Assembly (NCBI GenBank): GCA_022796195.1
Contig: JAAWIE010000006.1
Span: 1-57,027 of the forward strand
From: Lawsonibacter sp.
Lineage (GTDB): Bacteria; Bacillota; Clostridia; Oscillospirales; Oscillospiraceae
Direction of reading: 5' to 3'
DNA length: 57,027 bases
Shown here: one piece after another, positions 691 through 15,117 of the stretch
Layout of the letters: each line of letters starts with the position of its first letter
Position numbering within the stretch: the first letter of the stretch is position 1
Notes under the pieces: generated by a model
Told to the model about the DNA's origin: nothing
Database searches by the model: none
Seen by the model: the letters and a program-made list of their open reading frames with translations, nothing else
Position numbers and translations under genes: made by a program

Positions 691-3465
691 ATGCAGGCAG
701 AGCTTAACTGGCTGACCGACCCGAGGGTGTTCCAGGTAAACCGGCTGGACGCCCACTCCGACCACCTGTGCTATGCCTCCCCCGGGGAGCTGGAGCGGGG
801 GGAGAGCTCCCTGCGCCAGAGCCTGGACGGAGTATGGCGCTTTGCGTGGAGCCGCTCCCCGGCCCAGCGCCCCGCGGAGTTCTGGCGGGAGGACTTTGAC
901 GACGCCGGCTTCGGGACCATCCAGGTCCCGGGGCACATGGAGCTCCAGGGCTATGGGCAGATCCAATATATCAATACCCTCTACCCCTGGGACGGCCGCG
1001 CGGAGCTCCGTCCGCCCCAGCTCGACTGGGACGACGCCCCGGTGGGCAGCTATGTCCGGGAGTTTGACCTGGACCCGGGCCTGCGGGGGAAGCGGGTCTG
1101 TATCAGCTTCCAGGGGGTGGAGCAGGCCTTCTATGTCTGGCTCAACGGCCGGTTCGTGGGCTACGGGGAGGACAGCTTCACGCCCTCGGACTTCGACCTC
1201 ACCCCCTATATCCGGGACGAGGGCAACCGCCTGTGCGTGGAGGTCCACAAGCGCAGCAGCGCGGCGTGGATTGAGGACCAGGATTTCTTCCGCTTCAGCG
1301 GCATCTTCCGCCCGGTGTTCCTCTACGCCAAGCCCGAGGTACACCTGGCGGACCTGTGGCTCCAGGCGGGGCTGGAGGAGGACAACCGCACCGGCACGCT
1401 CTCGGCGCGGCTCCTGCTGGAGGGGGAGACGGAGGACGTGACGGTCCTCTGCAGCATCAGCCATCCCGCCCAGGGCGTGCTGTTTGACGGCAGCCTGGCG
1501 CTGGAGCGGGACGGCGGCTATTCCCGCAGCCAGGCCCTGCGGTTTGAAAACATTCTGCCCTGGGAGCACGGCGCGCCGGCGCTCTATCAGGTGGTGCTGA
1601 CCCTGTGCGCAGGGGGGGACGCCGTGGAGCTGGTCCCCTATGACATCGGCTTCCGGCGCTTTGAGCTGAAGGACGGGCTGATGCTCCTCAATGGCCGGCG
1701 GCTGGTCCTCAACGGCGTCAACCGCCACGAGTGGAGCCCGGACAAGGGCCGGGCCATCGGCCGGGCGGAGATGGACGCCGCCATCGAGACGTTCCGGCGG
1801 AACCATATCAACGCCGTCCGCACCTGCCACTACCCCAACCAGAGCGAGTGGTACAGCCTGTGCGACCGCAGCGGCATCTGCGTCATGGACGAGGCCAACC
1901 TGGAGAGCCACGGCTCGTGGCAGAAGCTGGGGGAGATCGACCCCGGCTGGAACGTGCCGGGGAGCCTGCCGGAGTGGAGGGAGTGCGTCTTGGACCGGGC
2001 CCGCTCCATGTTTGAGCGGGATAAGAACCACCCCTCCATCCTCTTCTGGTCCTGCGGCAACGAGTCCTACGCGGGGGAGGACATCCTGGCCATGGCGGCG
2101 TTTTTCCGGGCCAGCGACCCCAGCCGGCTGGTCCACTACGAGGGCTGCGTCCACAACCGGGCCTTCGCGGACTGCACCGATGTGGAGAGCCGGATGTACG
2201 CCCCGCCGGCGGATATCCGGGCGTACCTGGAGGGCGGGCCGGAAAAGCCCTTCCTCCTGTGCGAGTATATGCACGACATGGGCAACTCCCTGGGCGGCAT
2301 GGAGAGCTACATCCGCCTGGGGGAGGCGTTCCCCCAGTACCAGGGCGGGTTCATCTGGGACTATATGGACCAGGCCCTCTGGCGCACGGACTGCAACGGG
2401 CGGCGGGTGCTGGGCTATGGCGGGGACTTCGGCGAGCGGCAGAGCGACTATGCCTTCTCCGGCAACGGCATCGTCTTTGCCGACGGCACGGAGAAGCCGG
2501 CCATGCAGGAGGTCCGCTACTGGTATGCCTCCCCCGGGGCCCGCAGGGCCCACGACGAGGCCAACCGCCGGGCGGAGGCCTCCCTGGCGCTTCCTGTCCG
2601 GAGGAGGGAGGCCCCCCTCCGCGTTGTCCATGGCGACGGCGCTCTGGGCGTCCGGGGCGGGGGCTTCGAGCTGCTCTTCTCCTACCCCGAGGGCGGCCCG
2701 GTCTCGCTGGTTTCCGGCGGCAGGGAGTGGCTGTGGAGAGCGCCCCGCCCGGCCTACTGGCGGGCCCCTACGGAGAACGACCTGGGCTGCGGCTTCGCCT
2801 GGAGCAGCTCCGTCTGGTCGGCGGCGGAGAGCTGGCAGCGGTGCTGTGAGCGCAAAATCCTCCGGGAGGGGGAGGAGGCCGTCGGCATCCGCTATGTCTA
2901 CACCTCCCCCGCCATGCCGGAGCTGCGCACGGAGGTCGTCTATACCGTCGATTCCTCCGGCTGCCTGACGGTCCAGGTCTGCTACCACGGGCAGAGGGGC
3001 AGACCCCAGCTGCCCCTGCTGGGGCTGCGCTTTGCCACGCCGGTACCGGTGGAGACGGTGGAGTGGCTGGGCCTCTCCGGCGAGACCTATCCCGACCGGA
3101 AGCGGGGCGGCGCGTTCGGCTGGCACCGGGAGCCGCCTCACATCCCCCCCTACCTGGTCCCCCAGGAGTGCGGGTGTCATATGGACACGCGCTCGGCGAT
3201 TCTGCGCCTGGCGGGGAGCCAGCGGCTGGTGCTGGATATGGAGAAGCAGCCCCTGGCCTTCTCCGCCATCCCCTACACCCCCTGGCAGCTGGAGCAGGCC
3301 GCCCACCGGGAGGAGCTGCCGGAGCCGGTGCGCACGGTAGTGACCCTCTGCGGGGCCATGCGGGGCGTGGGCGGCATCGACAGCTGGATGTCCGATGTAG
3401 AGCCGGCCTACCACGTCAGCGCGGAGGAGGATATCGCGTTTTCCTTTAGGATTTTGCTCGATTAG
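691..3465 (+). CDS. lacZ: Beta-galactosidase, glycoside hydrolase family 2 (LacZ type)
   Basis: A 924-residue cytoplasmic GH2 enzyme that hydrolyses terminal beta-galactosides such as lactose. Domain order is that of LacZ: sugar-binding jelly-roll, immunoglobulin-like domain, TIM barrel, and the C-terminal small-chain region. Visible motifs are NGVNRHEWSPDKG, MDEANLESHG, the acid/base Glu in WSCGNES, and the nucleophile Glu in LCEYMHDMGNS. It is about 100 residues shorter than E. coli LacZ, as many Firmicute members are. No signal peptide is seen. The start has GGAG at 679-682 with suitable spacing. It follows queH closely and ends at a strong stem-loop. Which galactoside it prefers cannot be told from sequence; the GH112 locus at 27 kb also processes galactosides. 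Confidence 0.93.
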   Translation: MQAELNWLTDPRVFQVNRLDAHSDHLCYASPGELERGESSLRQSLDGVWRFAWSRSPAQRPAEFWREDFDDAGFGTIQVPGHMELQGYGQIQYINTLYPWDGRAELRPPQLDWDDAPVGSYVREFDLDPGLRGKRVCISFQGVEQAFYVWLNGRFVGYGEDSFTPSDFDLTPYIRDEGNRLCVEVHKRSSAAWIEDQDFFRFSGIFRPVFLYAKPEVHLADLWLQAGLEEDNRTGTLSARLLLEGETEDVTVLCSISHPAQGVLFDGSLALERDGGYSRSQALRFENILPWEHGAPALYQVVLTLCAGGDAVELVPYDIGFRRFELKDGLMLLNGRRLVLNGVNRHEWSPDKGRAIGRAEMDAAIETFRRNHINAVRTCHYPNQSEWYSLCDRSGICVMDEANLESHGSWQKLGEIDPGWNVPGSLPEWRECVLDRARSMFERDKNHPSILFWSCGNESYAGEDILAMAAFFRASDPSRLVHYEGCVHNRAFADCTDVESRMYAPPADIRAYLEGGPEKPFLLCEYMHDMGNSLGGMESYIRLGEAFPQYQGGFIWDYMDQALWRTDCNGRRVLGYGGDFGERQSDYAFSGNGIVFADGTEKPAMQEVRYWYASPGARRAHDEANRRAEASLALPVRRREAPLRVVHGDGALGVRGGGFELLFSYPEGGPVSLVSGGREWLWRAPRPAYWRAPTENDLGCGFAWSSSVWSAAESWQRCCERKILREGEEAVGIRYVYTSPAMPELRTEVVYTVDSSGCLTVQVCYHGQRGRPQLPLLGLRFATPVPVETVEWLGLSGETYPDRKRGGAFGWHREPPHIPPYLVPQECGCHMDTRSAILRLAGSQRLVLDMEKQPLAFSAIPYTPWQLEQAAHREELPEPVRTVVTLCGAMRGVGGIDSWMSDVEPAYHVSAEEDIAFSFRILLD

Positions 3466-3471
3466 CGGAAA

Positions 3472-3500
3472 AGGAGCCCGGGGCGCTGCCCCGGGCTCCT
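3472..3500. terminator. Bidirectional stem-loop between lacZ and the EF-G-like gene
   Basis: A perfect 13-bp stem (3472-3484 with 3488-3500) closes a 3-base loop between two convergent genes. The minus-strand reading is followed by TTTT; the plus-strand reading lacks a clean T tract. Confidence 0.7.
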
Positions 3501-3539
3501 CTGCCGCTATATATGAGATTACGAGAAAGCGAATCTGAC

Positions 3540-5615
3540 TTACTCGGCCTCCGCCAAAGCCTTGGCCTCGGCGATGGCCTTCTCCTGGGCCGCCGCCGGG
3601 CAGTCCTCGTAGCGGACAAAGTGGAAGGTAAAGGACCCTCTGGACTGGGTCATGGACCGCAGGTCGATGGCGTAGGTGGTCATCTCCGCCATGGGCACCT
3701 CCGCCTCCACCACCTGATCGCCGCCGCCGGTGGGGTTCATACCCATGACGCGGCCCCGGCGCTTATTCAAATCGCCGATTACATCTCCCATGTAGTGGTC
3801 GGGCACAGTAACCTTCAATTCCCCCACAGGCTCCAGAAGTACAGGGTTTGCTTCGGGCATGGCGGCCTTGTAGGCCAGCTGAGCAGCGGTCTTGAAGGCA
3901 ATTTCAGAGGAGTCAACCGGGTGATAGCTTCCGTCGTAGAGGACGGCTTTCAGGTTAACCACAGGGTAGCCAGCCAGAGGGCCATGGACACAGGCTTCCC
4001 GCAGGCCCTTTTCCACGGCAGGGAAGAAATTCTTGGGCACAGAACCGCCGAAGACCTCCTCGGCAAAAACCATCTGCTCCTCCTCCAGGTTGGGCTCAAA
4101 GCGAATCCACACATCACCGAACTGGCCGGAACCGCCGGTCTGCTTCTTATGCCGTCCCTGTTTCTGAACCGTCTTGCGAATCTTCTCCCGGTAGGGCACC
4201 CGCGTCTCGCTCAGCTCCGCCTCCACATTGAAGCGGCTCTTCAGCTTGGCCACCAGCACATCCACCTGGATATCGCCGGAACCAGTCAGCACCATCTGGT
4301 GGGTCTCGCCATTGTTTACCAGGGTGAAGGAGGGGTCCTCCTCGTTGAGGCGGTACAGGCCCTGAGCCACCTTATCCTCCTGACCCCGGGTCTTGGGGGC
4401 GATGGCCACCGAGTAGCAGGGCTCGGCAAAGGGGATCTGCTTCAAGGCCACTACCTTACGGTTGTCGCAGAGGGTGTCGCCGGTTTTGACCTTTTCCATC
4501 TTGCCAATCGCACCAATGTCGCCGCAGGACAGATCCTTCACTTCCTCAGCCCGCTTACCCTTCATCACATACAGACGGCCCAGCTTTTCCGTTGCGCCAG
4601 TGCGGGCGTTGACCAGGGTGAGGTCGGAGGTAATATGTCCGGAAATGACCTTAATGAAGGAGTACTTTCCATACTGGTCCGAGACCGTCTTAAATACGAA
4701 AGCGGTGGGCACGCCGCCGGGAGAGACCACAAACTCTTCGGTCTCGCCATCCTGACGGGTTGCCTTGTGGTAGTTGCCCTCCATAGGTGTGGGGAGCAGT
4801 TCTACGATGTAGTCCATCAGCATCAGGGAACCCATGCAGTTAACGGCAGAACCGCACAGCACCGGGAACAGGGACAGTTCCCGCACACCCTGACGCAGGC
4901 CCTGAATCATTTCGGGGTAGGTAAAGTCCTCACCGTCGAAGAATTTATTCATAAACTCCTCGCTGGTCTCGGCCACAGACTCTTTCAGTGCCTCATAGAA
5001 CTCGTCAATCACACCGGTCTTGTTCTCGGGCAGCTGAATTTCCACCCGCTGGAGCTTCTGCATCTCATAGGCCCGCTTGTTCAGCACGTCAATGATACCG
5101 GTAACCTTTTTGTTGTCGTCCCAAATGGGCACCACCACAGGGGCGATTTTGTTGCCATACTTCTCCCGCAGGGCTTCAAAGGTGGCATTATAGTCCGAGT
5201 TGTCTTCGTCTGTTTTCGAGATATAGATAAAGCGGGGCATATTCCGCTCTTCACAGTATTTCCATGCCTTCTCCAAACCCACAGAGATGCCGTCTTTGGC
5301 GGAGCAGACAATAATCGCCGCATCGGCGGCCCGGAGAGCTTCCATCACTTCGCCCGAGAAGTCGAAGCCGCCCGGAGTATCCAGAATATTGATTTTACAG
5401 CCCTTGAACTCCACCGGGGCCACGGCCAGGGAGATGGAAATTTGGCGTTTGACCTCTTCGGGGTCATAGTCGCATACGGTGTTGCCGTCGGCGGCTCTGC
5501 CCATGCGGTCGATTCCCTTGGTCATGTACAGCAGGCTCTCCGCCAAGGCGGTTTTACCACTGCCGCCGTGTCCAATGAGGGCCACATTGCGAATATTTTG
5601 TACAGAATAGCTCAT
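3540..5615 (-). CDS. EF-G-like translation factor GTPase (FusA paralogue)
   Basis: A 691-residue protein with the five-domain layout of elongation factor G: GTPase domain, domain II, and the C-terminal III-V block. G1 is GHGGSGKT near residue 14. G3 reads DTPGGFDF rather than DTPGHVDF, so the His that positions the hydrolytic water in EF-G is absent. The G4 motif is SKTD rather than NKxD. These features place it with the stand-alone EF-G-like group (T. thermophilus EF-G-2 type), not the housekeeping fusA beside tufA. I chose the ATG at 5615 because AAGGAG lies 11 bases upstream and homologues start at this point; an in-frame extension to 5666 has no ribosome site. It is monocistronic, with its own promoter and terminator. 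Its role is not known from sequence. Confidence 0.88.
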   Translation of the reverse strand: MSYSVQNIRNVALIGHGGSGKTALAESLLYMTKGIDRMGRAADGNTVCDYDPEEVKRQISISLAVAPVEFKGCKINILDTPGGFDFSGEVMEALRAADAAIIVCSAKDGISVGLEKAWKYCEERNMPRFIYISKTDEDNSDYNATFEALREKYGNKIAPVVVPIWDDNKKVTGIIDVLNKRAYEMQKLQRVEIQLPENKTGVIDEFYEALKESVAETSEEFMNKFFDGEDFTYPEMIQGLRQGVRELSLFPVLCGSAVNCMGSLMLMDYIVELLPTPMEGNYHKATRQDGETEEFVVSPGGVPTAFVFKTVSDQYGKYSFIKVISGHITSDLTLVNARTGATEKLGRLYVMKGKRAEEVKDLSCGDIGAIGKMEKVKTGDTLCDNRKVVALKQIPFAEPCYSVAIAPKTRGQEDKVAQGLYRLNEEDPSFTLVNNGETHQMVLTGSGDIQVDVLVAKLKSRFNVEAELSETRVPYREKIRKTVQKQGRHKKQTGGSGQFGDVWIRFEPNLEEEQMVFAEEVFGGSVPKNFFPAVEKGLREACVHGPLAGYPVVNLKAVLYDGSYHPVDSSEIAFKTAAQLAYKAAMPEANPVLLEPVGELKVTVPDHYMGDVIGDLNKRRGRVMGMNPTGGGDQVVEAEVPMAEMTTYAIDLRSMTQSRGSFTFHFVRYEDCPAAAQEKAIAEAKALAEAE

Positions 5616-5690
5616 AATTGGTTCCACTCCTTCTCGTTTGGGTATCGCCCTGGACAAAAGCTGCAAAACGGGCGTTACACGCTATTGGTT

Positions 5691-5719
5691 ATTATACACG
5701 AAAGGAGCGATTCTGACAA
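5691..5719 (-). promoter_or_regulatory. Sigma-A promoter of the EF-G-like gene
   Basis: On the minus strand, TTGTCA (5714-5719) and TATAAT (5691-5696) are separated by exactly 17 bases, about 75 bases before the start codon. Confidence 0.8.
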
Positions 5720-5782
5720 CAGTTTTTTTGAAGGATTTCAGGAAAAGCAAAAAATACCTCTTTTGTCGATCCTTGCCGCTCC

Positions 5783-6163
5783 CTACAACACATTCGTAAG
5801 CGTGGCCTGCTCCATCTCCGCCAGCAGCTCCAGCTGAGCCATGAGGTCTGCGTTGGCAGCGTTGTACTGGTCCGGTTCTTGGAGCTGGAGATACTCCAGC
5901 ACGGTACGAAAGCCGCGCAGCACCTGGTCGGTGTCGCTGTGCCGCATCGTGGTATGGAGATAGAAATGTTGTTTCTGCCAGTTCTCGTAGACCCGCCGGG
6001 TCAGAGCTTCCGCCTTGTCCCACTCCTCCCGGCCGGCCAAAGTCTGGGCCTGCCGCAAGTTCTCCCGCATGGCACTGGTCATGTTCTGGGCGTACCAGCC
6101 ATTGGCCAAACTGGCCCCCAGCAGTACCAGCAGCAGCGCCGCCGCAATCGAAAGCCGTTTCAT
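5783..6163 (-). CDS. DUF4363 family protein
   Basis: A 126-residue protein with an N-terminal membrane helix (about residues 4-21) that may serve as an uncleaved signal anchor, followed by a helical, Gln/Glu-rich extracytoplasmic region. It resembles DUF4363 proteins, which in Clostridia commonly sit directly after a DUF421 gene, as here (13-base gap). The start at 6163 has AAGGAGG 8 bases upstream; a longer reading to 6208 would overlap the upstream gene and lacks a ribosome site. The function is unknown. The pairing suggests a small two-component membrane module. Confidence 0.75.
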   Translation of the reverse strand: MKRLSIAAALLLVLLGASLANGWYAQNMTSAMRENLRQAQTLAGREEWDKAEALTRRVYENWQKQHFYLHTTMRHSDTDQVLRGFRTVLEYLQLQEPDQYNAANADLMAQLELLAEMEQATLTNVL

Positions 6164-6176
6164 TCCGCTGTCCTCC

Positions 6177-6851
6177 TTACGGTTCCTTTTTCGCCAGATA
6201 GACCGCATCCGCCTCGTCCACCAGCATGAGAAACACGGTCTTCAAATCTCTGCATCCCCGCTGTGCCAGCTGTTTGTCCAGCCAGGGCCGGTCATGTCCT
6301 AAAGATTTCAAATTGTGTTCCATCAGCCTTCCGTCACTGACCACCACCCTGGGCAGGCCGCCTTCCTCCACTGAGAGTTTCATGTCCTGGGCCGTGGGCG
6401 GCTTCTGGTTGGCGTAAGGCAGAACCGAGAGCTGGCCATTGGTTTCCAGTATGGCATATTTGATCTGACTCAGGTCAGTATAGCCCTTGCACCGCAATTC
6501 CTCCAGCAGCTCGTCCACGGTGAGGCGGGTTTTGTCCATCTCCTGCTGGTTGATGGCCCCGTTCTGGACGATGATACTGGGCCGTCCGCACAGGACCGCC
6601 CGAAACCGGACGCTTTTCATGGTCAGCACCGATAGAATCATAGTCAGCGACAACAGCGTAAGAATCGGGACAATCCCGGTCAGCAGGGGGATGCCATAGT
6701 CCTGCATGGGCACCGAAGCCAGATCCGCAATGATCAGCGAGAGTACCAGCTCCGACGGTTCCAACTCCCCCACCTGCCGCTTTCCCATCAGCCGCACCCC
6801 GGCGATGATGAGAATGTATAGAATTACGGTGCGTGTAAGTCCGGTAAACAC
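6177..6851 (-). CDS. DUF421 (YetF-type) membrane protein
   Basis: A 224-residue protein with three N-terminal membrane helices followed by the cytoplasmic YetF-like domain. The motif RLMGKRQVGELEPSELV after the first helix is typical of DUF421. The family includes B. subtilis YetF/YdfS-type proteins associated with spore membranes, but the biochemical role is unknown. An ATG at 6857 abuts AAGGAGG (no spacing), whereas the GTG at 6851 sits 7 bases after it and gives an N-terminus that fits the family better, so the GTG was chosen. It is first in a two-gene unit with the DUF4363 gene. Confidence 0.85.
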   Translation of the reverse strand: MFTGLTRTVILYILIIAGVRLMGKRQVGELEPSELVLSLIIADLASVPMQDYGIPLLTGIVPILTLLSLTMILSVLTMKSVRFRAVLCGRPSIIVQNGAINQQEMDKTRLTVDELLEELRCKGYTDLSQIKYAILETNGQLSVLPYANQKPPTAQDMKLSVEEGGLPRVVVSDGRLMEHNLKSLGHDRPWLDKQLAQRGCRDLKTVFLMLVDEADAVYLAKKEP

Positions 6852-6973
6852 AAGCATACCTCCTTGTTTCTATGGACGGTGCGCTCATAGTGTTTCCGGC
6901 CCGCTCAAAAAATATCCTGCGAATTGCCCAAAGCGCACAGCGAATATTTATGCGCATAAAGTCAAAATGTCTC

Positions 6974-7002
6974 TTGAACATTCCCGGCCTTTCCGGTATA
7001 AT
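6974..7002 (+). promoter_or_regulatory. Sigma-A promoter of carAB
   Basis: TTGAAC (6974-6979) and TATAAT (6997-7002) are spaced by 17 bases. The leader to the carA start is only about 45 bases, too short for a PyrR-type attenuator, and none is visible. Confidence 0.82.
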
Positions 7003-7052
7003 AGCGTAATAAATATACAATGTGCAATTGGACAGGAAAGCGAGTGATCAAA

Positions 7053-8147
7053 ATGAAAGCGGCTTTGATCTTAGCCAATGGCTCTGTTTTTTCCGGTGTA
7101 TCCATCGGCTCCACCCAGACCCGGGTGTGCGAGATGGTGTTTAACACCTCCATGACTGGCTACCAGGAAATTTTGACCGACCCCTCTTACGCCGGACAGG
7201 GGGTTGTAATGTCTTACCCTCTAATCGGCAACTACGGTATCAACCATGAGGACAACGAGTCCAGCCGGCCCTGGGCCGAGGCCCTTGTGGTCCGCCGCCT
7301 CTCCCCCCGGGGGAGTAACTTCCGCTGCGAGGGCAGTTTGGGCGACTATTTGCAAGCCCACAACATTCCGGGCATTCAGGGGGTAGACACCCGGGCTCTC
7401 ACCAAAATACTCCGCAGTCAGGGGAGCATGAACGGAATGCTCACTTGTGCAGAACGCTTCGACCTGGACGAAGTCCTCCAGCAGCTCAACGCCTACCGGG
7501 TGGAACATACGGTGTTCCGGGTCACCCGCAGCCAGCCAGAGGTTTTTCCAGCCTGTGGGGAGGAGCGGCTCCATGTGGCTATGCTGGACTACGGAGTCAA
7601 GCAAAACATGATCGAGTGCCTGCGCCGCAGGGGCTGTAAGGTGACAGTTCTTCCCGCCTCTACCTCTGCCGCCCAGGTACTGGCCGGGGGATACGACGGC
7701 GTGATGCTGTCCAATGGTCCCGGCGACCCAGCGGAAAACACCGCTATCATCGAAGAACTGAAGCGGCTTTATGCCAGCGAGCTCCCACTCTTCGGCGTCT
7801 GTCTAGGCCACCAGCTTTTGGCGCTGGCTACCGGGGCTCAGACGGGCCGCTTGGCCTACGGGCACCGGGGCGGCAACCACCCTGTTCGGGACCTGGAGAA
7901 GGGCCGGGTATACATCACCAGCCAGAACCACGGCTATATGGTGCTGACCGAATCGGTGGACCCGTCGGTGGCAGAAATCAGCCACATCAACGTGAACGAC
8001 GGTACCTGCGAGGGCCTGCGGTATAAACGGCCCTACTGCTTCACCACCCAGTTCCATCCAGAGGCCAACGCCGGCCCCAAAGACACTGAGTATTTATTCA
8101 ATCGCTTTATACAAAATATGATCGAATATCGTGGAGGTGACCGGTAA
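7053..8147 (+). CDS. carA: Carbamoyl-phosphate synthase small (glutaminase) subunit
   Basis: CarA hydrolyses glutamine and passes ammonia to CarB for carbamoyl phosphate, the first step toward pyrimidines and arginine. The 364-residue protein has the CPSase small-chain N-domain and a class I glutamine amidotransferase domain with the nucleophile Cys in GVCLGHQ (about residue 250) and the His-Glu pair in FHPE (about 335-337). The ATG at 7053 was chosen because it begins the family-typical N-terminus; a GTG at 7044, closer to AGGAAAG, adds only three residues and is a possible alternative. The stop TAA overlaps the ATG of carB by one base, so translation is probably coupled. Confidence 0.95.
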   Translation: MKAALILANGSVFSGVSIGSTQTRVCEMVFNTSMTGYQEILTDPSYAGQGVVMSYPLIGNYGINHEDNESSRPWAEALVVRRLSPRGSNFRCEGSLGDYLQAHNIPGIQGVDTRALTKILRSQGSMNGMLTCAERFDLDEVLQQLNAYRVEHTVFRVTRSQPEVFPACGEERLHVAMLDYGVKQNMIECLRRRGCKVTVLPASTSAAQVLAGGYDGVMLSNGPGDPAENTAIIEELKRLYASELPLFGVCLGHQLLALATGAQTGRLAYGHRGGNHPVRDLEKGRVYITSQNHGYMVLTESVDPSVAEISHINVNDGTCEGLRYKRPYCFTTQFHPEANAGPKDTEYLFNRFIQNMIEYRGGDR

Positions 8148-11100
8148 TGCCCAAGAATCAAGCGATCAAAAAGGTGCTGGTACTGGGCTCCGGACCAATC
8201 GTCATCGGCCAGGCCGCCGAGTTCGACTACGCCGGTACTCAGGCTTGCCGCGCCCTTCGAGAGGAGGGGCTGGAGGTGGTGCTGGTCAACTCTAACCCCG
8301 CCACCATCATGACGGACAAGGACATTGCCAGCCATGTATACATTGAACCGCTCACCATCCCCTCGGTCACCCGCGTGATAGAACTGGAGCGGCCCGACTC
8401 CATCCTGCCCACGCTGGGGGGACAGACCGGCCTGAATCTGGCTATGGCCCTCCATGAAAACGGCACGCTGGAGCGGTATGGGGTCCGCCTGCTGGGCACG
8501 TCTCCCGAGTCCATCCGTAAGGCGGAGGACCGGCAAGGCTTCAAGGACTGTATGGAGGCCATCGGTCAACCCTGCGTCACCTCTCTTGTGGTGGAGTGTG
8601 CGGCGGATGCGGTTGACTTCGCCGAAACCATCGGCTATCCGGTCATCGTCCGTCCCGCCTACACTCTGGGGGGCACTGGCGGAGGCATCGCCTACGACCG
8701 GGCGTCGCTGGAGGAAATTGCCGGACGGGGTGTCGCTCTGTCCCGGGTGGGACAGGTACTGATTGAGCGATGTATTGCCGGCTGGAAGGAAATTGAGTTT
8801 GAGGTCATGCGGGACGGCGCAGGCAATGTTATCACCATTTGTTCCATGGAAAACATTGACCCGGTGGGCGTCCACACCGGCGACTCCATTGTGGTAGCTC
8901 CCGCCCAAACTCTGGCCAATCTGGAGTTTCAAATGCTCCGCTCCGCCGCTTTGGATATCATCTCTGCCCTGGAGATTGAGGGCGGGTGCAATGTGCAGTT
9001 CGCCCTGAATCCGGACAGCTTTGAATATGCCGTCATTGAGGTCAACCCCCGGGTATCCCGCTCCTCCGCTCTGGCTTCCAAAGCCACAGGCTACCCCATC
9101 GCCAAGGTGGCGGCCAAAGTGGCGCTGGGCTATACGCTGGACGAGATCCCCAATGCTGTTACCGGAAAGACTACAGCTTGTTTTGAACCAGCTATCGATT
9201 ACTGTGTGTTAAAGATTCCCCGCCTGCCCTTTGACAAGTTCACCACCGCAAGCCGCACTCTGGGCACTCAGATGAAGGCCACCGGCGAGGTCATGGCGAT
9301 TGCCAATTCCTTCGAGGGGGCGGTGATGAAAGCCATCCGCTCGTTAGAGCTGAATGTACGGGCTCTCAAGCTGGATAAATTGGAAGAACTTTACACCGAT
9401 GAGATTGAAGAACTGCTGGTCAACATCACGGATGAACGGCTGTTTGTGGTCGCCGAGGCCCTGCGCCGGGGATTTTCTCCCCAAAAAATCTATTCCATCA
9501 CCAAAATGGATATCTGGTTCCTAGATGGTTTCCAGCGCATTATAGACATGGAGGCGGAGCTGTCCCGCTGCAAAGGCGAGCCCAGCGCAGACCTTCTTCG
9601 CCGGGCCAAGGAGATGTGTTTTGCCGACAGCTATATCGGCGCACTGTGCGGTATCGAACAGGCCCAGGTAAAGGCTCTGCGGGAGAAACACGGTATTGTC
9701 CCGGCCTTCAAAATGGTGGACACCTGCGCCGCCGAATTTGATGCCGAGACCCCCTACTATTATTCCACCTACGACGGAGAAAACGAAGCCCAAGACGGCG
9801 GAACCGACCGGAAAAAGGTGCTGGTGCTGGGTTCTGGGCCGATCCGGATCGGCCAGGGCATCGAATTTGACTACTGTTCTGTCCACTCGGTCTGGGCGTT
9901 AAAAAAACTGGGCTGTGAGACTATCATTGTCAACAACAACCCTGAGACGGTCTCCACCGACTTCGACGTGGCGGACAAACTGTACTTTGAGCCGCTCACC
10001 GCCGAGGATGTGCAGAACATTGTGGAACAGGAGAAGCCTTGGGGGGCCGTGGTCCAGTTTGGCGGACAGACCGCCATCAAGCTGGCTAAAGCTCTCACCG
10101 ACATGGGTGTGCAGATTTTGGGCACCTCCTACGACGGGGTGGACGCCGCCGAGGACCGGGAGCGGTTCGACGAAATTTTGCAGAAATGCGGCATCCCCCG
10201 GGCCAAGGGGAAAACGATCTGCACCACCCAGCAGGCATTGGACGCCGCCCATGCGCTGGGTTATCCGGTGCTGGTCCGGCCCTCCTATGTGCTGGGCGGC
10301 CAGGGCATGGAAATTGCCTACTCCGACCGGAATATCGAGGAGTTCATGAAGATCATCAACCTGACCGTCCAGGAGCATCCCATTCTCATTGACAAGTACC
10401 TTATGGGCCGGGAACTGGAGGTTGACGGCGTCTTTGATGGAACAGACATCCTCATCCCCGGCATTATGGAACACGTGGAACGGGCGGGAGTTCACTCCGG
10501 AGACTCTATTGCCGTCTATCCGCCCCTCCACCTGGAGGACAAACACCGGAACCTGATTCTCCAGCATACCCGAAACATGGCAAAACATCTGGGTGTCATC
10601 GGCTTGATCAATGCCCAGTATATCCTGTATAACGACGATATCTACGTCATCGAAGTCAACCCCCGTTCCTCCCGCACCATCCCCTACATCTCCAAGGTAA
10701 CAGGCGTACCTGTGATCGACCTGGCAACCCGGGTCATGCTGGGGGAGAAACTCCGCGACCTGGAGTACGGCACCGGCATTTATCGGGAGGGAGACTACTT
10801 CGCGGTCAAGGCCCCGGTGTTCTCCTTTGAAAAACTCACCGATGTTGACACCGGTCTGGGCCCAGAAATGAAGTCCACTGGCGAGGTGCTGGGTCTGGCC
10901 GAAACCTATCCCCACGCTCTGCTCAAAGCGTTTACCGGCGCAGGGATGCGGGTGCCCAAACGGGGCGGACGGGTCATCATCACTGTCCGGGAGGAGGACC
11001 GGCGTGAGGCCGTCGCCATTGCCCGCGGCTTTGAGGATATGGGGGTGGAGCTTTTTGCGGACGGAGAAACCTGTCAGGCTATTCTCAGCGCGGATATCCC

Positions 11101-11356
11101 CTGTAAACGTGTTAACCAAGTGCATGAGGCCCACCCCAACATGCTGGACATGATCGCCTCCGGCACGGTAGACCTGATCATCAACACCCCCGGCCGGGGC
11201 CGGCGGCACGATTCCCACGGCTTTAAAATACGCCGTTCCGCCGTTGAGCATGGGGTCGGCTGTGTCACCTCCATCGACACCGCCCGAGCCCTGCTCACCG
11301 TATGCAAAGCGGGCCGGAACGAGGAACTGTCCTCCATTGACATAACATCGCTTTAA
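8147..11356 (+). CDS. carB: Carbamoyl-phosphate synthase large subunit
   Basis: A 1069-residue protein of full family length that makes carbamoyl phosphate from bicarbonate, two ATP and ammonia from CarA. The two homologous halves are visible: each has a pre-ATP-grasp start (VLVLGSGPIVIGQAAEFDY near residue 11; VLVLGSGPIRIGQGIEFDY near residue 559) and an ATP-grasp domain with an EVNPR motif. The C-terminal MGS-like allosteric domain follows from about residue 930. A GGAGGTG ribosome site lies inside the carA end. The transcript ends at a stem-loop 40 bases downstream. Confidence 0.97.
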   Translation: MPKNQAIKKVLVLGSGPIVIGQAAEFDYAGTQACRALREEGLEVVLVNSNPATIMTDKDIASHVYIEPLTIPSVTRVIELERPDSILPTLGGQTGLNLAMALHENGTLERYGVRLLGTSPESIRKAEDRQGFKDCMEAIGQPCVTSLVVECAADAVDFAETIGYPVIVRPAYTLGGTGGGIAYDRASLEEIAGRGVALSRVGQVLIERCIAGWKEIEFEVMRDGAGNVITICSMENIDPVGVHTGDSIVVAPAQTLANLEFQMLRSAALDIISALEIEGGCNVQFALNPDSFEYAVIEVNPRVSRSSALASKATGYPIAKVAAKVALGYTLDEIPNAVTGKTTACFEPAIDYCVLKIPRLPFDKFTTASRTLGTQMKATGEVMAIANSFEGAVMKAIRSLELNVRALKLDKLEELYTDEIEELLVNITDERLFVVAEALRRGFSPQKIYSITKMDIWFLDGFQRIIDMEAELSRCKGEPSADLLRRAKEMCFADSYIGALCGIEQAQVKALREKHGIVPAFKMVDTCAAEFDAETPYYYSTYDGENEAQDGGTDRKKVLVLGSGPIRIGQGIEFDYCSVHSVWALKKLGCETIIVNNNPETVSTDFDVADKLYFEPLTAEDVQNIVEQEKPWGAVVQFGGQTAIKLAKALTDMGVQILGTSYDGVDAAEDRERFDEILQKCGIPRAKGKTICTTQQALDAAHALGYPVLVRPSYVLGGQGMEIAYSDRNIEEFMKIINLTVQEHPILIDKYLMGRELEVDGVFDGTDILIPGIMEHVERAGVHSGDSIAVYPPLHLEDKHRNLILQHTRNMAKHLGVIGLINAQYILYNDDIYVIEVNPRSSRTIPYISKVTGVPVIDLATRVMLGEKLRDLEYGTGIYREGDYFAVKAPVFSFEKLTDVDTGLGPEMKSTGEVLGLAETYPHALLKAFTGAGMRVPKRGGRVIITVREEDRREAVAIARGFEDMGVELFADGETCQAILSADIPCKRVNQVHEAHPNMLDMIASGTVDLIINTPGRGRRHDSHGFKIRRSAVEHGVGCVTSIDTARALLTVCKAGRNEELSSIDITSL

Positions 11357-11394
11357 CGGAACACCTTCCTCTAAAAAATCTGATCCTCTTTCAT

Positions 11395-11438
11395 AACCGG
11401 AGAATGGGGCCTTGCCCAACATTCTCCGGTTCTTTTTT
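11395..11438 (+). terminator. Rho-independent terminator after carB
   Basis: A 12-bp stem (11395-11406 with 11420-11431) with an inner GGGC/GCCC pairing is followed by TCTTTTTT. Confidence 0.88.
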
Positions 11439-11474
11439 GGCGCGAAACAGCTCATCGCATTTTCAACTTAGCCC

Positions 11475-11501
11475 TAAACTTTTCTCTTTACAGGCCGATA
11501 A
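11475..11501 (+). promoter_or_regulatory. Sigma-28 (SigD/FliA) promoter
   Basis: TAAA at 11475-11478, a spacer of exactly 15 bases, and GCCGATAA at 11494-11501 match the sigma-28 consensus at every defined position. It stands in the gap after the carB terminator, upstream of the unknown gene at 11628, with a leader of roughly 120 bases. Confidence 0.82.
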
Positions 11502-11627
11502 CAGATAAAAGGGGATAAGTGCTGTGACCTTCGGTATCATGCGCCGCCACTTTGAGTCTGGTATTTTGGACCGCGCCAGCAGAGCGCGGACTGTAACGCA
11601 GTTTTGAGAACGAAAGGGGATAGAACC

Positions 11628-12923
11628 ATGTTTATTGGCAAAATACAGACCCACTCTTACGCGGGCCATATGGGTATTTCGCCGGCAGGTACAAAGAATC
11701 CATTTGCTTCCAAACAAACCACACAGCCGCAGTATGACCAAGTGGAGCTGGGAAGCGGTGCGCAGAATCACCCATACTCCGGTGCATATCGTCCCAACGC
11801 CAACCAGATGAAGCCGCTTGGACCGATTTCTTATACCCAAGCGGCCCCTGACAGCAGCTTGATGAGGGAGATTCTGCCGCCGTCGGAGCAAGCGTCTTAC
11901 ACCGAGGAGGACGCGCTCTACAACCAGTATATGAAGCAATTCCGTGTTGACATCTATCTTTATGGAGATGGCTCTGAAAACTCTTCCTCTGAACCGTTAA
12001 AGCTGATTACGAAAGACGACATCGCAAAAGAGGACTTGGAGAAATTCCGCAGCGAACTCGCCGAGAATGGCCTTGGTGATGAAATCGACTGGCGGGGCGT
12101 CGAGAGCGACCTTTGGCGTATCGGCATCGACTTCGACAACGTCCAGCGGTTTGAGCAAAAAGCCGATTACCTCGCCTCCAGATACGCGGTTTTGAAAGAC
12201 CGCATCCAAACGCAATTTACAGGAGAGAAGCAGGAGGCGGAACTGCAAAAGCTGGAGCAGATTTATACCGAGGCGAAGGAAACGATGGCAAACTCTTACG
12301 CGGACAGCATTGGGAGCTTCTTTGAAGATCTGGGACAGTCCGGAGCGGCAGAAGATATGAAAAATAGTGTTTTGGCCCTTGTGGACCAGAAGGCAGAGGC
12401 ATATACCGATTTCCTTTCTCAAACGGATCTCTACGCCGGTGTAACTGGTCCGGATCAGCTGTGGCTCAAACAGGACGACGGATATATGGCGGCCCAGCTG
12501 CGCAAAAGCGCCGCCGCGTCTCAGGCGGAGCCGCAAGAGCAGCCTGTCAAGGAGCAGGCCCCTTACGATGGAAATGATTTAACCTTTGCAGGCATCTGCG
12601 CCAAACAGCTTTCTCAGCAGCTGAAGGAGCCGTCCTGGAATATGTCCAAACCTGATGCAGAATTGGGGCAGAACCTTGCCGCTCAGTATAGTGAATTACA
12701 ACATGCAGCTGAAAAAGCCGGCGTCAGCGGCAAATTGTCCAAAATGCTCACCGCTTCCTTTCGACCATATATGGATCGGTTGATGGACTCTATGGATTCG
12801 ATGATTGACCAGAATCGGGAATGGGTAAGCGGCAAACCCTGGATGTCCAGCCTCATCCGTACCAAACATATTGACCGAACCAGTGTCTATCAATCCTTTC
12901 AAAACGCTGTCTCGAGAGGGTGA
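11628..12923 (+). CDS. Unknown protein under a sigma-28 promoter
   Basis: I do not recognise this family. The 431-residue product has no signal peptide or membrane helix. The first ~90 residues are rich in Gly, Pro, Ser, Asn and Gln and look disordered. Residues ~110-430 look mostly alpha-helical and acidic, with heptad-like stretches around 180-260. A segment near residue 275 (GPDQLWLKQDDGYMAAQL) recurs in the next gene as GPDHVWLKDHDAYIASQL, and the following ~80 residues also align, so the two are paralogues. The ATG at 11628 was chosen for the AAAGGGGA 7 bases upstream. The perfect sigma-28 promoter points to late flagellar or chemotaxis-linked expression; a secreted or assembly-associated flagellar accessory protein is a possibility, not shown. 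Confidence 0.8.
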   Translation: MFIGKIQTHSYAGHMGISPAGTKNPFASKQTTQPQYDQVELGSGAQNHPYSGAYRPNANQMKPLGPISYTQAAPDSSLMREILPPSEQASYTEEDALYNQYMKQFRVDIYLYGDGSENSSSEPLKLITKDDIAKEDLEKFRSELAENGLGDEIDWRGVESDLWRIGIDFDNVQRFEQKADYLASRYAVLKDRIQTQFTGEKQEAELQKLEQIYTEAKETMANSYADSIGSFFEDLGQSGAAEDMKNSVLALVDQKAEAYTDFLSQTDLYAGVTGPDQLWLKQDDGYMAAQLRKSAAASQAEPQEQPVKEQAPYDGNDLTFAGICAKQLSQQLKEPSWNMSKPDAELGQNLAAQYSELQHAAEKAGVSGKLSKMLTASFRPYMDRLMDSMDSMIDQNREWVSGKPWMSSLIRTKHIDRTSVYQSFQNAVSRG

Positions 12924-12969
12924 CATCCCCTGTCCTGCATAGCAGTTCAATAAAACGGGAGGAAGCACC

Positions 12970-13626
12970 ATGAGCATCTCAAATTTAGGAACTATCTCCA
13001 CCATCACCAGCCAGATTACCACCGGCGCACCCCAGGCGGGGTTCCGCTGTGACCCCTCCGCCTCGCCGGCCACTAACAGAGGAAGTCTATCAGGCCGGAA
13101 AGGCCGGAATGATTGACGGCTATACCCGGCTTTTGCAGGACAACTTGGGACTTTCTGACCGCGACGCCCAGGCGGTTCGTGACAGCTTTTCCACCATTTT
13201 GTCCGAGAAGGTAGAGGCATACTGCGGCGCACTGGAGCAGGTTCACAAGGATGCAGCCCAGACCGGTCCCGACCACGTGTGGCTGAAGGATCACGACGCT
13301 TATATCGCCTCCCAGCTCCGGGCCGCCGGTAACGCCGGTCAGAGCCAGGCCCGGTATTCCATACAGGATCTGACTGCCGCCGGGCAGATTGCCCAAAGTT
13401 ATCGGACGGAGATTGCCGACGCGTCCTCCTGCGGCCGCAATGAAGCGACATTGGCCCTGAACCTGGCTATGGCGGATATGAAGGCGGAGACACTCAGGTG
13501 AACCGGCTGATGATTCAGCTTGGCAAAACTCCCAGTCTGGGCAGTTCCACCTACCAGAAGTTCGCGGACAGCTGGCGGGATTTCCTCACAGGTATTGGCG
13601 GAAACCGGCTGAACCTCAAGGCATAA
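12970..13626 (+). pseudogene. Paralogue of the preceding unknown gene, with two compensating frameshifts
   Basis: Translation from the ATG at 12970 (GGGAGG 7 bases upstream) gives MSISNLGTISTITSQITTG and then leaves frame at about 13038-13041, where a run of four G would read through if it were three. The next frame is open from there to 13501 and holds the GPDHVWLK segment shared with the upstream gene. Near 13489 one base appears missing (GCGGAG-ACACT), after which the original frame resumes through LMIQLGKTPSLG to TAA at 13626. The whole would encode about 218 residues. The frame is restored overall and the coding signal is continuous, so this is either a recently damaged gene or two sequencing errors. 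The currently open middle piece alone is 13049-13501, starting at a GTG. Function unknown. Confidence 0.72.
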
Positions 13627-13627
13627 T

Positions 13628-13671
13628 AACAAGCGGCGAAGCATCCGAGCTTGGATGTTCCGCCGCTTGTT
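13628..13671. terminator. Stem-loop between the unknown pair and the anti-sigma gene
   Basis: An 11-bp perfect stem (13628-13638 with 13661-13671) with an inner ATCC/GGAT pairing lies between convergent genes. T tracts are short, so its strength is uncertain. Confidence 0.65.
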
Positions 13672-13762
13672 CTGTGTTTCCGAACCTATATTTACAGCTG
13701 AGGAAATATCCAATTGCTCTGGAATCCCCCCGCTGTGTCCCCCATTGCCCATTCTGTCTGGT

Positions 13763-14509
13763 TCACGGTTCTCGTATCACCAGAACATATTCTCCTTCGC
13801 TGGGTTGTACCTCAACCGGGATACCCTGTTCCACAGCCATCTGCCGGAGCTGGTCAATGATCTCCTGAGACAGGCCCCGGTAGACAAAGCCGCCGTCTGG
13901 ATGAGAGCTCACCGCCGTCTCGGGAGAAATCAGCTCTTCCGCCCCCTCGGGCATCGTATCCAAGCGCACCTCCATATCTTCCACTGGCGGTATGCTGTAG
14001 AGTGCCGGTCCTGGGGCAAGGTCCAAAAACTTCTGCGATCCGTCTTCAATGGCATCCTGCGACGGCTCCGGGGACGCATAAGCTGCAATCTGAGGGGCGT
14101 CCTCTCCAGCGCCAGACCCATCCGCCGTCCCCATGTGGGGGTCCAGGCCAACTCCCCGTGTCATCGGCGTCAAATCCTGCTCTCGGCTGTTCTGAGTAAA
14201 GCCATACAGTCCCGCTACCAAGACCAAACAGGCAGCCCATCCGGCCAGCGCCCGGAATCGAGGCTTCCACGGAATTACTTTTTGCTTCTGAATGCGGTCC
14301 ATCACGCCCTGAGTAAAGCCCTCAGGCGCAGAAATTTCTTCCAAACCAGCGAAACCGGCTTGGAGCGCAGCCAACTGCGCTCCAACTGTCCGGCACTCCG
14401 GACAGTTGGCCATATGTTCTTCCAGCTCCCGCTCCTCAGACTGGGTCAAAGCACCGTCCAGACGCGCGGAGAGCAATTCAAAATATCGGTCGCAGGCCAC
14501 GGACGTCAC
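13763..14509 (-). CDS. Anti-sigma factor with zinc-finger (zf-HC2) domain
   Basis: A 248-residue single-pass membrane protein. The cytoplasmic N-terminus has the HxxxCxxC zinc motif (HMANCPEC, about residues 32-39) of zf-HC2 anti-sigma factors, the membrane helix is at about 87-106, and the remaining ~140 residues would be extracytoplasmic and acidic. It starts at a GTG whose last two bases overlap the TGA of the upstream sigma gene, so translation is coupled and the partner is almost certainly that sigma factor. The outer domain is probably the signal sensor, since its sequence is not a known domain to me. How release occurs (proteolysis by RseP at 48.8 kb is one option) is inference. Confidence 0.86.
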   Translation of the reverse strand: MTSVACDRYFELLSARLDGALTQSEERELEEHMANCPECRTVGAQLAALQAGFAGLEEISAPEGFTQGVMDRIQKQKVIPWKPRFRALAGWAACLVLVAGLYGFTQNSREQDLTPMTRGVGLDPHMGTADGSGAGEDAPQIAAYASPEPSQDAIEDGSQKFLDLAPGPALYSIPPVEDMEVRLDTMPEGAEELISPETAVSSHPDGGFVYRGLSQEIIDQLRQMAVEQGIPVEVQPSEGEYVLVIREP

Positions 14510-15117
14510 CCCCTCTCGTTTCGTTTCGCTGGTTTAGACGGCGCACTGCGAAAAAAGTTCCCGTCCGCCAGCAAAATATTTCGCAAGGACAGCCGGGCCC
14601 GGGCAATGCGTGACTTGACAGTACCCAGGTCCAGCTCCAGCACCTGAGCGATTTCCTGGTAGCTCAGCCCAGACAGTTCCCGCAGAACCAGCACCCGCCG
14701 CTGCCAATCGGGCAGTTGGGCCAGCCCACGGGCCAGAGCTTTCCCCTGCTCCGAGCGTTCCAGCTCACGCTGGGGGTCGCCCTCCCAGCTGGCAGGCTCC
14801 GCCCAGCCGCTGTCCGGATCATCCAGCGAGACCGAAGCCGCCACATTCTCCCGCCGCTTCTGCTTCCGCAGATGGTCAATACATACATTTGTAGTCAGAC
14901 GGTAGATCCAGGTGGCAAAGCTGCTCTCCCCCTGAAAGGACGCCAGACCCTGCCATGCTTTTACAAAGGCTTCCTGAGCCAAATCCGCCGCCTCTTCCCG
15001 GTCGCCGGTCAGACGCAGGGCCAGCGCGTACACCTTATTTTGATTTTCGGTCACCAGCTGCTCAAAGGCGTTTGAGTCGCCTTTTTTCGCACGCTCCACC
15101 AGCTCCTGGCCGTTCAC
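14506..15117 (-). CDS. ECF-type RNA polymerase sigma factor
   Basis: A 203-residue sigma-70 family member with region 2 (DLAQEAFVKAWQGL; SSFATWIYRLTTNVCIDHLR) and region 4 (LSGLSYQEIAQVLELDLGTVKSRIARAR). These fit group 4 (RpoE/SigW-like) sigma factors that direct a small stress regulon. Start is GTG at 15117 with AAGGAGA 8 bases upstream. It lies 40 bases after dusB on the same strand and overlaps its anti-sigma gene by 4 bases. No distinct promoter was recognised in the 40-base gap, so it may be transcribed from the dusB promoter. Confidence 0.93.
   Translation of the reverse strand: MNGQELVERAKKGDSNAFEQLVTENQNKVYALALRLTGDREEAADLAQEAFVKAWQGLASFQGESSFATWIYRLTTNVCIDHLRKQKRRENVAASVSLDDPDSGWAEPASWEGDPQRELERSEQGKALARGLAQLPDWQRRVLVLRELSGLSYQEIAQVLELDLGTVKSRIARARLSLRNILLADGNFFRSAPSKPAKRNERG

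Follow-up and report, generated by a model that had tools for sequence, protein, structure and literature searches.

A gene of no named family linked to the flagellum behind a sigma-28-type promoter element in a Lawsonibacter sp. genome

The locus studied here raises the question of what a gene that fits no named protein family does behind a promoter element of the flagellar sigma-28 type. It lies in a window of 57,027 nt, the whole stretch of contig JAAWIE010000006.1 that was analysed. The gene, called A below, is very probably one of the late flagellar genes, of a family that the libraries searched leave unnamed, and it probably encodes an accessory or exported protein of the flagellum. Its link to the flagellum is strong, and a family that those protein libraries do not name is now tied to this organelle. 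Export of the product is plausible from its sequence. The features of the locus are as follows (G and L numbers are our own handles for genomes and loci).

11396 to 11430, + strand: terminator-like hairpin, then UUCUUUUUU (fold -23.6 kcal/mol, z -4.3)
11475 to 11501, + strand: putative sigma-28 promoter TAAA-N15-GCCGATAA (pattern match and matrix score)
11502 to 11627, + strand: 5′ leader of gene A, with a predicted transcription start near 11508
11628 to 12923, + strand: gene A, flagellum-linked protein of no named family (intact open frame, 431 codons)
11730 to 11756, + strand: FlgM-like N-terminal motif QYDQVELGS, codons 35-43 of gene A
12970 to 13065, + strand: gene B remnant, N-terminal piece (MSISNLGTIS...), 75% identity to residues 1-32 of the L032 protein
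13064 to 13495, + strand: gene B remnant, middle piece in the other frame, 76% identity to L032 residues 189-332, with a profile match
13543 to 13602, + strand: gene B remnant, C-terminal piece in the first frame, 65% identity to L032 residues 472-491
13628 to 13671, + strand: long terminator-like hairpin 3′ of the gene B remnant, with a weak T tail (fold -30.2 kcal/mol, z -6.7)

Gene A and the remnant of gene B

Gly, Pro, Ser, Asn, Gln and Thr make up 51% of residues 1-90 of the gene A product, which would be mostly helical if judged from composition only. By hydropathy alone, it has neither a hydrophobic N-terminus nor a membrane helix (top 19-residue mean, 0.24), and the first-pass annotation had likewise seen no signal peptide. 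Neither Pfam nor NCBIfam gave a match over a cut-off. PHROGs yielded nothing convincing (best E 0.0044), and the family had no convincing relative among PDB chains (best E 0.046, chain YIII(Dq)4CqI). An anti-phage role was rejected, as PADLOC, run on 12 members with an E limit of 0.01, gave no match. The earlier suggestion of an undescribed family thus agrees with Pfam, NCBIfam, PHROGs and PADLOC, none of which gave anything over a cut-off. Homology to FlgK, FlgL, FlgB, FlgN, FliJ, FlgD, FliC and FlgM was also rejected, with probabilities of at most 1% in profile comparisons that used alignments of 1 to 7 sequences. For flagellin, FlgK and FlgL, kinship was found neither by Pfam in 12 family members nor by profile similarity (3 to 7 sequences).

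Two working paralogues had been proposed behind the promoter. The paralogy stood (32% identity, E 2e-16), but the second gene survives only as a decayed remnant, in pieces that occupy two frames, and it is this remnant that begins with MSISNLGTIS. Two internal deletions removed about 156 and 139 residues, with a frame change at both. Gene B represents, in decayed form, a sister subfamily (B) of gene A. Intact relatives, of about 490 residues, are found in G284 (three copies) and G184, and a copy in G122 is cut by the contig end. Profile comparison relates the A group to the B-C-D group with 99.9% probability. Before its decay, gene B may once have followed gene A in one unit. A weak match of the remnant to DUF7798 (E 0.0033) was under the cut-off of that family and was rejected. 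On the - strand, a pair of genes for an ECF sigma factor and a zf-HC2 anti-sigma factor (13763-15117) converges on the remnant.

The promoter element and its recurrence

The first-pass annotation had read a sigma-28 consensus promoter at 11475-11501, and three counts bear this out. TAAA-N15-GCCGATAA occurs once in the window, on the + strand, it occurred in none of 100 shuffles, and its matrix score was 22.5. The matrix was built only from flagellar promoters of other genes, none from A genes; its eight source sites, from flagellin-type, CheA and GGDEF genes, were chosen by eye and by pattern. The background was 6000 random 200-nt stretches, the tested sites among them, of which 1% exceed 11.7 (the 99% quantile). 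In the whole 2.68 Mb genome, TAAA-N14-16-GCCGATAA matched twice, against one match for the pattern read backward. The element also fits the sigma-28 consensus of Butyrivibrio, TAAA-N16-17-MCGATAa, in the passage of PMC3720852 that quotes it. From its -10 end to the ATG of gene A there are 126 nt; another passage of that paper gives distances of 47-375 bp between flagellin gene starts and the sigma-28 promoters inferred for them in Eubacterium and Roseburia (PMC3720852). From these matches, we infer that gene A is transcribed by sigma-28.

The sigma-70-type scan of the + strand of 11300-13800 found no promoter. The hairpin at 11396-11430, with its T-rich tail, sets the promoter element apart from the gene upstream, which is carB by eye. 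A simple terminator scan listed neither this hairpin nor that at 13628-13671; the scan finds fewer sites than it does in shuffles (1 vs 3.3). A structured leader was rejected because 11508-11627 has no special fold (z +0.96), and a search of the 5′ leader for a DUF3879 remnant gave no real match.

The element recurs before related genes. By the same matrix, five of the six A genes scored 17.9-25.0 and both D genes 27.0 and 25.9, against the random quantile of 11.7. The closest A orthologue, L030 (67%), scored -1.4 over 200 nt and lacks such a promoter there, and no sigma-28 site was found by the matrix within 200 nt of the B and C genes. Upstream of flgM, TWAW-N15/16-N-MCGATA was present within 500 nt in 12 of 13 carriers, the host genome's own flgM included, and was missing at L109. 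The flagellins of G053, G198 and G138 have the same element as gene A. If the promoter is used, late flagellar expression would be common to A, flagellin, FlgK and FlgL; in sequence, these three differ from A, as described above.

A looser scan of the host genome with TWAW-N16-CCGATAW gave 11 sites, vs 7 in the backward control. Six of the 11 lie upstream of gene starts. Five of the genes concerned encode A, CheA, a protein with Flagellin_N, one with GGDEF and one of 264 codons; the sixth, serine acetyltransferase-like by eye, probably has its site by chance. The other five sites fall within frames, and one of these coincides with the beginning of a gene that looks CheD-like by eye. The pattern alone is thus weak, yet it mostly precedes genes of flagellar kind. 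These loose counts, and the lack of the element at L030, are what would be expected if the match were a coincidence and the gene unrelated to flagella. We regard this as very improbable, because the element stands before five of six A genes and 12 of 13 flgM genes, and because the family co-occurs with FlhA and FlgM (see below).

Two of the proteins behind such sites are worth describing. The 264-codon protein (L045:461-1252, G000:C172) belongs to no family, stands behind a strict sigma-28 element and has DSVTISEEG at residues 35-43; its contig also holds a GGDEF gene and a chemotaxis receptor gene. A Flagellin_N protein (L127:6938-10033, G000:C25) has 1031 codons and lacks the usual flagellin start.

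Carriers of the family and the flagellum

The first-pass annotation would have been contradicted by a genome without flagella. The host genome has FliA, FlgM, FlhA and flagellins. Two FliA and two FlhA are over curated cut-offs, five proteins match Flagellin_N (two over the cut-off), and runs of flgM-flgN-flgK-flgL-fliW and flgB-flgC-fliE-fliF were recognised by eye. The two fliA and two flhA genes lie on short contigs, and together with a contamination of 7.88% they suggest that the bin may mix two strains.

A profile search of 300 genomes from the taxonomic family found the gene family in 10. FlhA was found in 63 of 300 (62 over the cut-off), and all 10 carriers are among these 63; the two counts were taken as the same 300 genomes from shared handles. 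By genome, the co-occurrence has P = 9e-8, a value too small owing to relatedness; by genus, it is 5/5 vs 33/106 (P = 0.002). Of the genomes sampled in the genus, two (G000 and G189) have both, and G039, G128, G237 and G275 have neither. Homologues mainly in non-motile strains, which would have spoken against the earlier note, were not seen. G198, which keeps only a residue of A, is a carrier in the protein search and not in the profile search, which has G172 instead; all 11 genomes have FlhA. FlgM was present in 13 of 13 carriers tested, including G172, G198 and the genomes of L028 and L029. Flagellin_N was found in nine of 10 carriers (over the cut-off in seven), with none in G189. L028 and L029 are two further A orthologues from the genome collection, in bins labelled Dorea and Mediterraneibacter; both bins have FlgM behind the element, and L028 adjoins a chemotaxis receptor gene. 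A class-wide search matched three of 371 genomes, one of them the host itself. A wider spread in the class was rejected, as the two outside matches are weak and fall in frames that resemble, by eye, a chemotaxis receptor in one case and a CBS-type protein in the other. Among the genomes searched, confident carriers are restricted to bacteria with flagellum genes.

Gene A seems dispensable, because G198 lacks nearly all of it and still has FlhA and FlgM. G198 and G053 match at 88-94% on both sides of the locus, and where G053 has about 1.3 kb containing the promoter and nearly the whole of A, G198 has instead about 0.66 kb of different DNA with another open frame. As 40 C-terminal codons are left, loss of A in G198 is favoured over gain. 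Such a scattered distribution with decayed copies might also be expected of mobile-element cargo that acquired a sigma-28 promoter and serves the element instead of the flagellum. In G053, the copy of A is flanked by genes for large serine recombinases, one about 5 kb and the other about 0.5 kb away (L033:2010-11956 and L042), and a B copy of G284 (L035) is on a short contig with a piece of a recombinase. In the window, on the other hand, the neighbours of the copy are carB (by eye) and the ECF sigma gene, no recombinase was seen next to it, and every confident carrier has flagellar genes. We therefore consider mobile cargo improbable.

The FlgM-like leader and the role of the product

FlgM of the carrier genomes has a motif, such as FDQITLSA, that starts near residue 35 (33-41 in nine sequences). 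We built a motif matrix from nine of 13 FlgM loci; L112 and L117 were left out and both have the motif on reading, and L114 and L120 are near-copies. Among the 20 proteins scored, only gene A, L030 and an unnamed protein (L037:5428-6504) exceeded all 153 background frames. The A orthologue L033 was matched by seven of the 153 (5%), and L028, L029 and L034 were no better than background (18-43% of frames as good). The tested B, C and D leaders had no match (48-86%). DUF4885 proteins were matched by 3-16% of background frames (four copies) and the 264-codon protein by 5%.

The motif hints at export of the gene A product by the flagellar type III route. The likeness to FlgM is of two kinds: a sigma-28 element stands upstream of both, and the leader of A shares the D-x-hydrophobic-x-hydrophobic-S motif. 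However, A is four times longer, it lacks the FlgM domain PF04316 in Pfam, and the profile comparison between them is not significant (0.5%, E 0.12).

With modest confidence, we favour the interpretation that A is a class III gene read by FliA, and that it encodes an accessory protein, soluble and mostly helical, whose leader resembles that of FlgM and which the type III apparatus probably exports. Export of FlgM would free sigma-28, and FliA would then read gene A late from its own promoter. The product, with a leader of about 45 residues, would probably be recognised and exported by the flagellar apparatus, as FlgM is, and it would act outside the cell or on the filament. If export is true, flagellin is not the only protein that motile relatives send out through their flagella.

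The promoter and the co-occurrence also fit with a late flagellar protein that stays in the cell, such as a chaperone, a regulator that rivals FlgM for a shared partner through the motif, or an accessory of chemotaxis or the motor. The absence of a signal peptide by hydropathy is in keeping with this, and CheA, a cytoplasmic protein, has the same element. However, A shows no similarity to FlgN or FliJ, and flagellar chaperones are unlike a protein of 431 codons with a long N-terminus rich in Gly, Pro, Ser, Asn, Gln and Thr. An intracellular role is thus possible, though we think it rather unlikely.

The exported accessory protein that we favour might not be the only one of its kind. In a wider reading, the flagellar export machine would be a general secretion route in these bacteria: a set of unrelated unnamed proteins (gene A, the DUF4885 and 264-codon proteins, and unnamed neighbours such as L037:5428-6504) would share a FlgM-type leader and leave through the flagellum, several of them under sigma-28 control. 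This wider proposal is tentative, and we would sooner doubt it than accept it. DUF4885 (PF16226) exceeded its cut-off in four of 300 genomes, all of them carriers of the A family, so that a Pfam family of unknown function is tied to the same genomes; a sub-threshold match was found in G191, which is not a carrier. The promoter element precedes one of three DUF4885 copies tested. A and 11 relatives, by contrast, give no DUF4885 match. YjcM of B. subtilis is, we presume, a DUF4885 protein. The yjcM gene appears in a list of genes known to be SigD-controlled, in the part of PMC5200910 that gives it.

DUF3879 (PF12995) is a further family met near these genes. The gene upstream of B in L037 has a weak match to it (E 7e-5, below the cut-off), and DUF3879-like pieces (by eye) precede B in L035 and L036. 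The B genes of G284 lie downstream of a sigma-28-like site that is farther up, before the DUF3879-like gene or piece (L035, L036 and L037). In L037, this site is about 260 nt from the DUF3879-like gene, beyond the 200-nt range of the matrix, with other frames separating it from B. A literature search for DUF3879 and DUF4885 found no paper. In the L037 region (895-14952, G284:C11), 13 open frames, none with a signal peptide by eye, come after an ECF sigma gene and one other gene; among the frames scanned, only DUF4885 was over a Pfam cut-off, and the rest include the DUF3879-like protein and the B copy.

Two observations concern the flagellins of these genomes. In G122, a B gene adjoins a gene for a flagellin of 1064 residues with N and C domains (L038:1190-4384). 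In addition, we read the leaders of 16 of 32 flagellin matches. A bulged palindrome, TTTCA..CGGCTgacgAGCCG..TGAAA, had no match in Rfam; it is clear before nine of these 16 genes, within about 190 nt upstream of the starts (L061, L064, L066, L067, L070-L073 and L076). Three of these hairpins were folded, and their stems differ with matching changes (z -3.0 to -5.9).
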